DNA of 27,872 nt, from positions 1 to 27,872 of the IMG/VR virus record IMGVR_UViG_3300047453_000512; one strand, 5' to 3'. This document shows positions 4,789 through 21,897 of this stretch, piece after piece; the stretch's first letter is position 1; every line of letters begins with the position of its first letter. A program made the translations under genes and the position numbers. This DNA is from a virus. The notes below the pieces were generated by a model. That model did not search any database. It saw nothing but the letters and a program-made list of their open reading frames with translations, and was not told the origin of the DNA.

Positions 4789-5475
4789 TTAGTCAATGTC
4801 AGGGAATAAACATTCCTGTACGAATACTCGTACATCCTCTTCGTCGAGTCCTAAACTGGTCATTGTTTTAGGAGTGTGCGGATTTTGTTTTTGATAATGT
4901 GCATAACGATTCTGTGCTGTTTTTACTTCGTCTGTATCTGCTGTATGATTATGATTACCAATGTCTGTAAGATAAGCATCTACACTGTCTAAACTCAACT
5001 CTAACAGTTGATCAAGTTCTTCACGTTTGTTCACATTGCCTGCTGCTACCATATGCGGTGAGAAGATTGCTTGAGCCCATTCAGGTAGTTCACGTTCTTT
5101 GCGCCATTCAAGTTTGCTTACTTCGTCACCAAATGCTTCAATCATTGGATGATCGGCATCTATAGTTCTACTGTAGTCGTGGAAGAACCCTGTAATTTTA
5201 TTTTTACCAGCAATAACATCTAGTCCAAAAACAGGACCGTTATTGTCTAGTCTTGGAAAAACACAACAATGCATCATCCACAAACCTTTGGTTTCACGCA
5301 CATCCACAACATCAATGTGTGCTCTACGATAGCTGTCACTTTGCCATACTCTGTTTAACCAACCAGGCTGATTGAATCTATCCATTCCTGGCTCTTGTAT
5401 TTCTGTACCCGTAGCGTCAAATGCATCAATTAACCTGTCTTGTATTTCTATTAAGGTTTCCCAAACTTCACTCAT
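4789..5475 (-). CDS. pcyX: ferredoxin-dependent bilin reductase, PcyX-like
   Basis: A 228-residue member of the PcyA/PebS family, which reduces biliverdin with electrons from ferredoxin. The family core is clear: YRRAHIDVVDVRETKGLWMM, then VFPRLDNNGPVFGLDVIAGK, then KITGFFHDYSRT. Asp86 in FGLD matches the catalytic Asp of PcyA/PebS. The short N-terminus and the pairing with a heme oxygenase fit the phage PcyX group known from marine metagenomes and assigned to phages of heterotrophs; PcyX is reported to make phycoerythrobilin by four-electron reduction. The gene overlaps ho1 by 8 bases, so the two are likely co-translated. The role in a non-cyanobacterial host is unknown. PebS or PcyA activity cannot be excluded from sequence alone. 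Confidence 0.85.
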   Translation of the reverse strand: MSEVWETLIEIQDRLIDAFDATGTEIQEPGMDRFNQPGWLNRVWQSDSYRRAHIDVVDVRETKGLWMMHCCVFPRLDNNGPVFGLDVIAGKNKITGFFHDYSRTIDADHPMIEAFGDEVSKLEWRKERELPEWAQAIFSPHMVAAGNVNKREELDQLLELSLDSVDAYLTDIGNHNHTADTDEVKTAQNRYAHYQKQNPHTPKTMTSLGLDEEDVRVFVQECLFPDID

Positions 5476-5995
5476 TATTTAATTCCTCAAACAATTTGGT
5501 TGCATATTTAAAACAAATATTTGCTTCCTCTGCCATTTCGTCATCCAACACAGTACGAACTTTTATTTTAAGGTCTTCGACATTATCAAAATCATACATA
5601 ACACCTTTTGTAAATGGAATACGTTTTTTAATCATTTGACCTCCATACATATCTCCAAAGTGTCTAACATAAACGTGGGCCATTAGTTCATCACTATCAA
5701 GTGTAGGAAGGTAATTAATATAATCTACAGCACTAGGTTTTAGTTTATCTTTTGTTCTTTTAAAACCATATTCGTGTTCTAATTCTTTTAAATCAATACT
5801 AATGCGTTTGGCTCTGCGTATGTCTTCAATGCCGTCTAAGTCAGCTAATGATTCAAGAGAACCGTAGATAATAAATTGATTGTACAAGTAGGTGTGATAT
5901 TGTTCAGGAGTAATACCATTCATAAGTTTCCTGGCAAATGCTGTTCTTTCAGCATTTTGATGATTCTCCCAAGTAAGTTCTTTAAGTTTGCTCAT
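5468..5995 (-). CDS. ho1: heme oxygenase (biliverdin-forming)
   Basis: A 175-residue heme oxygenase that opens heme to biliverdin IX-alpha, CO and iron. The proximal heme ligand is His12 (TWENHQNAE). The distal helix has the flexible glycine motif GDMYGGQ at residues 114-120, preceded by YVRHF. At 175 residues it is shorter than bacterial or cyanobacterial HO (about 210-240) because the C-terminal extension is missing, as in other phage HO proteins. Its product is the substrate of the bilin reductase encoded 8 bases inside its 3' end. It overlaps the clpS stop as ATGA (5992-5995), so clpS-ho1-pcyX read as one operon. Electrons are expected from ferredoxin. Confidence 0.93.
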   Translation of the reverse strand: MSKLKELTWENHQNAERTAFARKLMNGITPEQYHTYLYNQFIIYGSLESLADLDGIEDIRRAKRISIDLKELEHEYGFKRTKDKLKPSAVDYINYLPTLDSDELMAHVYVRHFGDMYGGQMIKKRIPFTKGVMYDFDNVEDLKIKVRTVLDDEMAEEANICFKYATKLFEELNNE

Positions 5996-20941: not shown

Positions 20942-21556
20942 TTATTTACTATCTTCTGAAAGTCGTCCATTAATATACTTTAGTAGTAATCCGTATGCTG
21001 GTAAGAAAATAACCAACCCTACGCCAATCTTCAGTACTGTTTGTGATCCTGCAATCTCCATCCAGTTTGCTGCCATATACTCATCTGCTGAGTTGTTGAA
21101 TGCCACCCAAAAGAAAGTGTAACTATCAATAATATTGGCTGCTACTGTTGATACAGCTGGTGCTAACCACCAAGCCTTATACTTTTCACGCAAATACTGG
21201 AAGACATAAACGTCTAACATTGTTCCAATAGCATAGGCTGTTGCACTTGCAAAACCAATACGCAGTGCCACTGATTGTGGTGCGCCTTCAAGCATTACAA
21301 CTGCAATGCTTCCGATGATTGCCAACGGATATGCCGCTGCAATTGTTGCTCGAGCAATATTCTTACCTAACATTCTAACTGTTAAGTCAGTTGCTAAAAC
21401 AACTAATGGGAACGTAAATGCTGCCCAAGTTAATTTGATACCAGCTATTTCTACTGGAATAGCAACTAGTGCATTACTTACTGTGATAACAACTACGTGT
21501 AATAACACTAGTTTGAGCAACATACTTCTATCAATGTTTTTAAAAATTCCTATCAT
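20942..21556 (-). CDS. yhhQ: queuosine precursor transporter (YhhQ/VUT family)
   Basis: A 204-residue membrane protein with about six helices. Family phrases: VITVSNALVAIPVEIAGIKL, TWAAFTFPLVVLATDLTVR, GKNIARATIAAA and the last helix with NIIDSYTFFWVAF. YhhQ imports preQ0/preQ1 for queuosine in tRNA or, in some phages, 7-deazaguanine DNA modification. No other deazaguanine gene is in this window, so whether the phage modifies DNA or helps the host's tRNA modification is unknown. The start has GGGAG 7-8 bases upstream. It follows the tmRNA gene with only about 20 bases between and may share its promoter. Confidence 0.85.
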   Translation of the reverse strand: MIGIFKNIDRSMLLKLVLLHVVVITVSNALVAIPVEIAGIKLTWAAFTFPLVVLATDLTVRMLGKNIARATIAAAYPLAIIGSIAVVMLEGAPQSVALRIGFASATAYAIGTMLDVYVFQYLREKYKAWWLAPAVSTVAANIIDSYTFFWVAFNNSADEYMAANWMEIAGSQTVLKIGVGLVIFLPAYGLLLKYINGRLSEDSK

Positions 21557-21579: not shown

Positions 21580-21863
21580 GAGGCCCGTTCTGTTGCTAGG
21601 TGGAACCCATACCCCGCATACCTAATTAGGCTGCAATTGCCATTGCTGGCGCACGATTGTCATTTGCAATTGTGAATGTTGACCAATAACGCAGTCATCC
21701 GGTAAACTCCACTTCACTTTCACACCTGTCGATCCTAGTTCAGCCCCATCATAATTACTCTATGCCGTAAATTTGTAGTTTTTACGCTACAAAGTAATTA
21801 TGGTGGAGCTGCCGGGTACTGCCCCCGGGTCCAGTATGCGTTCACGTTGCTTCAACGTCTACA
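21580..21863 (-). ncRNA. ssrA: circularly permuted (two-piece) tmRNA, ssrA
   Basis: The gene is arranged acceptor piece first (about 21863-21801), then a loop to be removed (21800-21748), then the coding piece (21747 to about 21580), as in alphaproteobacteria. The acceptor piece ends CAGCTCCACCA with the CCA encoded; its CAGCTCC pairs (one G-U) with GGGGCTG, the first seven bases of the coding piece. A CCGGG/CCCGG T-stem with a 7-base loop precedes it. The coding piece begins GGGGCTGAACTAGGATCGAC, like tmRNA 5' ends. The tag frame (21667 to 21626) starts at a GCA resume codon and gives ANDNRAPAMAIAA then TAA, which matches alphaproteobacterial tags (AND...AA). The loop folds by inverted repeats TAATTACT/AGTAATTA and TTTGTAG/CTACAAA. 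The 3' boundary and exact processing sites are estimated. Confidence 0.93.
21748..21800 (-). other. intervening segment of the permuted tmRNA
   Basis: These 53 bases separate the encoded CCA (21801-21803) from the first G of the coding piece. Nested inverted repeats at its ends (ATAATTACT and AGTAATTAT) and inside (TTTGTAG and CTACAAA) would hold both RNA ends close for RNase processing. It should be missing from the mature two-piece RNA. Confidence 0.8.
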
Positions 21864-21866
21864 GTC

Positions 21867-21897
21867 TATTTATAACATAGATTTAAGCTTGTGTCAA
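21867..21897 (-). promoter_or_regulatory. fused sigma70/late promoter of the tmRNA gene
   Basis: Minus strand TTGACA (21892-21897), 17 bases, TATAAA (21869-21874); extending the -10 gives TATAAATA at 21867-21874, an exact T4-type late box. A start 6-8 bases downstream falls at about 21861, where the acceptor piece begins. One DNA element thus fits both the host sigma70 and phage late sigma factor. Confidence 0.8.

Follow-up and report, generated by a model that had tools for sequence, protein, structure and literature searches.

The window, a stretch of 27,872 nucleotides of viral DNA (IMG/VR record IMGVR_UViG_3300047453_000512), encodes a circularly permuted (two-piece) tmRNA on its minus strand at positions 21862-21590. 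Two Rfam models score above their gathering thresholds, alpha_tmRNA (RF01849) with 138.1 bits over 21901-21577(-) (E 5.5e-38; gathering 50) and tmRNA_permuted (RF04321) with 120.2 bits over 21862-21626(-) (gathering 47), and ARAGORN reports one RNA gene only in the whole window, this permuted tmRNA, with the tag ANDNRAPAMAIAA followed by a stop. The first-pass annotation had read the locus as a phage-borne two-piece tmRNA of the alphaproteobacterial type with its own complete tag, and the covariance models bear this out; the range it gave, 21580-21863, is off by no more than a few bases, though the promoter at 21897-21867 lies outside it.

The acceptor (tRNA-like 3') piece comes first (21801-21862, minus strand; ARAGORN and Rfam) and consists of the T arm, the acceptor strand CAGCTCC, an A and an encoded CCA, the last three elements at 21811-21801. 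The coding (mRNA-like) piece, which Rfam places at 21590-21747 (-) with an approximate 3' end, begins with GGGGCTG (21747-21741) and pairs through it with CAGCTCC in an acceptor stem of seven pairs, G3:U70 among them. Its tag frame, ANDNRAPAMAIAA plus a stop codon, lies at 21626-21667 (-; coding part 228-269 of the ARAGORN gene). These elements are all present as first described, but on the minus strand, and the covariance scores, the order of the halves with the seven-pair stem and CCA, and an open tag frame with a hydrophobic AA end and a stop together mark the gene as a two-piece tmRNA. The intervening segment (21748-21800, -) extends the acceptor stem as a long hairpin: acceptor strand, segment and start of the coding piece fold as one continuous hairpin of 95 nt (-43.5 kcal/mol, z -6.8). 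The segment is probably removed from the precursor.

Covariation supports the stem. In a set of 127 distinct viral tmRNAs, 373 of 381 cells retain pairing at acceptor pairs 5-7, and changes on both sides of a pair are frequent (GC, CG, TA, AT). This count leaves out 17 of 172 matches without a findable 5' strand; loci L083-L202 had position 7 of the 3' strand fixed, and pairs 1-4, set by the search patterns, add no proof. When the partners of pairs 5-7 were re-dealt 1,000 times, the number kept averaged 284.5 and never exceeded 302. In L387, a syntenic relative, the tmRNA is conserved at 75.7% DNA identity, with the tag ANTNAAPAMAIAA.

Neighbouring genes in the window encode NrdA and NrdB, the curli proteins CsgG and CsgF, a heme oxygenase and a bilin reductase, IMPDH, a fatty acid desaturase and a YhhQ-type transporter. 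The window's NrdA shares 74.6% identity with its S-PM2 counterpart, and a protein on a sister contig is 51% identical to a Melnitz cyclase. These matches, with a clamp-loader relative described below, support a T4-like phage only indirectly, and no structural genes were found in two sister contigs. At 4789-5995 (-) the heme oxygenase adjoins the ferredoxin-dependent bilin reductase, a pair that we take to be pigment genes like those of pcyX phages. The next gene downstream of the tmRNA, outside its unit, is the YhhQ-type transporter (Pfam Vut_1; 20942-21556, -), presumably a queuosine precursor importer, for which 175 viral relatives were confirmed. No terminator was seen between it and the tmRNA, and the two are possibly co-transcribed.

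Promoter boxes upstream of the acceptor piece

The acceptor piece is preceded by TTGACA-N17-TATAAATA, in which the -10 element of a sigma-70 promoter coincides with an exact T4 late box. The -35 element TTGACA lies at 21892-21897 (-) and, after the 17-nt spacer, TATAAATA with its TATAAA lies at 21867-21874 (-). Measured against the sigma-70 consensus (TTGACA, 16-18 nt, TATAAT), the pair matches at 11 of 12 positions; a stricter consensus promoter scan misses it because the last -10 position must there be T. Transcription begins about 7 bases after TATAAA with sigma-70 and about 6 bases after TATAAATA in T4 late promoters. With these spacings both starts would fall near 21861-21862 (-), where the acceptor piece has its 5' end and the RF04321 match its first position (21862), and the exact box would stand about 13 to 6 nt before the predicted start, as in a T4-type late promoter. 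In an alignment of 13 sequences that includes L387, all eight columns of TATAAATA are invariant and diverged spacer columns hold about 1 bit or less; TTGACA is present in all 13, in one register in 11 of these.

The box is widespread among viral tmRNAs and was not seen in front of cellular ones. Of 113 distinct sequences upstream of viral tmRNAs (left from 121 matches once 2 that were too short and the duplicates had been removed), 61 have exact TATAAATA 60-25 bases before GGAC and 52 lack it, whereas none of 115 distinct alphaproteobacterial upstreams has it (118 matches to the same pattern in cellular genomes). A Pelagibacteraceae-order set was added because this first host set is GC-richer than the viral one (0.50 vs 0.33). 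The tmRNA gene is present in 129 of 147 genomes of the order of a Pelagibacteraceae genome, and TATAAATA occurs in none of the 37 distinct tmRNA upstreams in the resulting AT-rich, mostly SAR11 set, where -10 boxes are TATATT-like (52 loci, including one other, unclassified alphaproteobacterium, L323, and one locus without an ARAGORN call, L357). Relatives chosen by linkage to nrdB, without regard to tmRNA, yielded 15 tmRNAs in 80 loci, and all 12 distinct upstreams are composite; a few of these contigs, plus the window's sisters, are also among the matches of the IMG/VR pattern scan.

Two other assignments were rejected. A promoter that mainly serves yhhQ fits poorly, given that only L003-L007 and L055 of 80 yhhQ-linked viral loci show a tmRNA, that Rfam finds none in 12 of the remaining loci, and that the genes after the tmRNA vary, unrelated ones standing there in relatives. 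Since the downstream genes differ, the promoter follows the tmRNA. A late-only promoter was rejected in view of the TTGACA ahead of TATAAATA.

It is harder to dismiss a promoter that is simply early and sigma-70-dependent, although we consider it unlikely. The 11 of 12 consensus match speaks for it, TATAAATA by itself can serve as a sigma-70 -10 box, a stable tmRNA made early could persist through infection, and the BPROM call of the Melnitz authors is an early promoter (PMC9004378). However, among TTGAC-N18-TATAA sites on the same 1.01 Mb of viral contigs, ATA follows and completes TATAAATA at 36 of the 37 distinct ones that precede tmRNAs and at just 5 of the 38 others (Fisher 8e-15). The invariance of all eight box columns among diverged relatives also speaks against an early-only use, as does the occurrence of TATAAT and TATAAATA side by side in L100, L137, L171, L187, L189 and L200. 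Finally, the box is lacking in phages without homologues of gp23 or gp55 (0 of 8 cultured phages).

Gene content links the box to T4-type late transcription. Homologues of Melnitz gp23 occur in 12 of 50 tmRNA-bearing records and of gp55 in 11 of 50, and Melnitz also has gp55. Exact TATAAATA is found in 9 of 14 gp23-positive records, that is, these 12 with Melnitz and Phosso added (L084, L094, L129, L133, L151, L153, L154, L167 and Melnitz). L147 and Phosso match at 7 of 8 box positions, and L139, L150 and L183 at best at 6 of 8, by eye. Among gp23-negative records, two of more than 80 kb (L106, L172) have no box and a 63-kb fragment (L161) has one. In a 134-kb nrdB relative (G208), the plus strand, which is the tmRNA strand, has ten copies of TATAAATA and the opposite strand one, mostly just before reading frames, and a clamp-loader relative was found there. 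Against the link, no gp55 was detected in four sister contigs of the window, all fragments, and neither gp23 nor gp55 in six nrdB-relative contigs including the 134-kb one, again all fragments.

Similar boxes also occur at other genes. Upstream of nrdB in the window, TATAAATA (26249-26242, -) comes first and a distinct sigma-70-like promoter (TTGACA ... TATAGT) after it, an early-plus-late arrangement that is conserved in the 134-kb relative (G208 24482, +). The composite TTGAC-N-TATAAATA also precedes genes for an Hsp20-like and a gp32-like protein (both by eye) and for a small secreted protein (L093, L112/L133, L377/L498).

Lineage of the RNA and its tag

In a tree of 139 tmRNAs (midpoint root, host rows subsampled), 70 of 77 viral rows and the cultured phage RcRudolph lie on one side of a branch with support 97/87. 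Another side, with support 99/97, holds 55 cellular rows and three viral ones; four viral and six cultured-phage rows make up the remainder. The tmRNAs of the window and of Melnitz sit on the main viral side, apart from the cellular genes. The distance from the -10 box to GGAC is mostly 41-50 bases in viral genes and mostly 57-65 in host genes, and is shorter in the former because the host 5' hairpin is missing, seen as a gap in the Rfam alignment. The window's gene, which lacks the hairpin positions and groups with viral rows, falls outside the alphaproteobacterial cellular clade and apparently belongs to an old viral branch of two-piece tmRNAs.

This placement bears directly on whether the gene could be a recent copy of a host tmRNA, taken up by imprecise excision or transduction and serving no selected function in the phage. 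Integration is common at tmRNA genes, and close relatives of the window (L420, L426, L459) carry exactly ANDNRAPAMALAA, which equals tags of Rhodobacterales: cellular tags of that group include ANDNRAPAMALAA (L207, L209 (Roseicyclus), L248 (Rhodobacterales), L286 (Cypionkella)) and ANDNRAPAMAVAA (L240, Shimia). However, the RNA body groups with the viral tmRNAs, the host 5' hairpin is missing, the promoter is different and the gene is conserved in L387, so that a recent host copy is largely refuted by the tree and very improbable overall. Given the viral RNA bodies, the identity of ANDNRAPAMALAA with Rhodobacterales tags would reflect convergence or chance, and we place little weight on it because many of the viral genes have tags that follow the pattern ANDNxAPxxALAA.

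Nor is it at all probable that the RNA acts as a decoy or inhibitor of host trans-translation instead of a helper. A precedent exists in the tag-less tmRNA-like gene reported for mycobacteriophage DS6A (PMC11915505), but the window's gene has its tRNA domain, G3:U70, tag frame and stop all intact, and an ANDN-like start and AA end are retained in most viral tags. In some related phage tmRNAs the tag is unusually long, at 19-31 residues, and also has AA at its end (L160/L175, L196, L155/L428, L179/L481).

The tag itself, which had been called unusual for its AIAA end and RAPAM centre, turns out to be unexceptional: RAPAM is ordinary in Rhodobacterales (the five cellular loci above), and AIAA ends 9 of 105 tag-bearing loci in the general alphaproteobacterial set and 4 of 51 in the mostly SAR11 set. 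The suggestion that some SAR11-type phages carry tmRNA was partly apt, given that relatives are in part Melnitz/HTVC008M-like, but the tag resembles those of Rhodobacterales and not the 9-aa tags of SAR11 (for example, ANESYALAA). A phage smpB, proposed as something to look for, did not appear in any of 20 phage records, several of them fragments, while control genomes were positive in 10 of 14. Hence, the phage tmRNA probably uses host SmpB.

Proposed role in infection

We consider it likely, with a probability of roughly 0.68, that the window encodes a working two-piece tmRNA of a viral lineage, transcribed through the same bases by an early sigma-70 and a late T4-type start, and serving ribosome rescue throughout infection. 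The use by both polymerase forms, the processing, the charging and the rescue are what we infer from the features above. Early on, host sigma-70 polymerase would initiate transcription where the acceptor piece begins, through TTGACA-N17-TATAAA, and later a phage T4-type late sigma would read the same bases as TATAAATA. In the folded precursor the intervening hairpin would continue the acceptor stem, and host RNases would cut out the intervening segment to leave two pieces held together by that stem. After loading by host AlaRS, which G3:U70 would allow, and by host SmpB, the tmRNA would free ribosomes stalled on broken mRNAs, which are expected to be common because phage infection degrades host RNA, and would add ANDNRAPAMAIAA to the stalled proteins for ClpXP-type proteolysis. 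A phage copy that both polymerase forms can read would secure rescue while host transcription falls.

Rescue with a phage-encoded tag late in infection had been proposed at first pass. Rescue is still the best reading and the T4-type late box agrees with it, but 'late' is only half right: expression at all stages is more likely because the late box doubles as the -10 element of a good sigma-70 promoter. E. coli tmRNA is abundant throughout T4 infection, and the authors of that work suggest a constant need (PMC9697503). A promoter readable in both phases would argue that the phage requires this RNA at every stage, contrary to the 'early' proposal in print, and bears on the question of why phages carry tmRNA.

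A wider picture, to which we give even odds, is that marine T4-like phages maintain an old, self-contained tmRNA lineage that lost the host 5' hairpin and gained a fused early/late promoter, providing rescue from entry to lysis, with some tags equal to those of the likely Rhodobacterales hosts. If this is true, such a tag would stay readable by host proteases. The mainly viral side of the tree also weakens the inference of a recent host switch from the tmRNA of a phage, an argument made for Melnitz.

Comparison with known systems

Two-piece tmRNA in phages is a known kind of gene. It has been published for Melnitz and other marine phages, and two-piece forms make up 53 of 133 unique phage tmRNAs counted there (PMC9004378); other papers count 79 phage tmRNA sequences (PMC11915505) and describe tmRNA in Bradyrhizobium phages (PMC12656738). 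Our pattern scan of IMG/VR found at least 120 stretches with such genes, which are therefore common. The part that looks new is the composite early/late promoter in front of the tmRNA, of which we found no published account in the open-licence literature.

Among the cultured phages, four roseophages (DSS3P8, RpoS-V10, MD18, DSS3_MAL1) have a match to GOLLD RNA (RF02032) at or just over the 150-bit cut-off, about 60-240 bases before the permuted tmRNA (L408 545-978, L409 545-978, L415 436-903, L416 593-1056); three of these four records lack a tmRNA annotation, and our search of the literature for GOLLD together with tmRNA turned up only work on mycobacteria and streptococci. In the Rhodobacter phage RcRudolph (L414 1127-1462), the hypothetical protein UUV44828.1 lies over the acceptor half of the permuted tmRNA and is probably a false gene.

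Melnitz (MZ577097, SsrA), a Methylophilales phage, is similar to the window in its permuted alpha-type tmRNA, marine origin, curli genes, TTGACA-N17-TATAAATA in front and side of the tree; it differs in its tag (ANDNYVPVDYALAA), its other neighbours, and the glutamine riboswitch and early sigma-70 promoter that its authors assign to the tmRNA (PMC9004378). The alpha_tmRNA (RF01849) of Alphaproteobacteria shares the piece order, tRNA domain, encoded CCA and tag form ANDN...AA, but has an additional hairpin at its 5' end, downstream of the -10 box, and no TATAAATA. Eight cultured phages of alphaproteobacteria (DSS3P8, RpoS-V10, RcXuper, MD18, DSS3_MAL1, EliS-L02, RcRudolph and Cp1R7A-A1) likewise carry a permuted alpha-type tmRNA, but have neither a gp23 or gp55 homologue nor TATAAATA upstream. 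The tree includes seven of them, and RcRudolph alone joins the main viral side. The closest parallel to the promoter comes from RB49 and S-PM2, for which overlapping early and late promoters were proposed at other genes (PMC2984593): early and late elements are likewise combined for one gene, but there the genes are middle-class protein genes, whereas in the window both elements share bases before an RNA gene.
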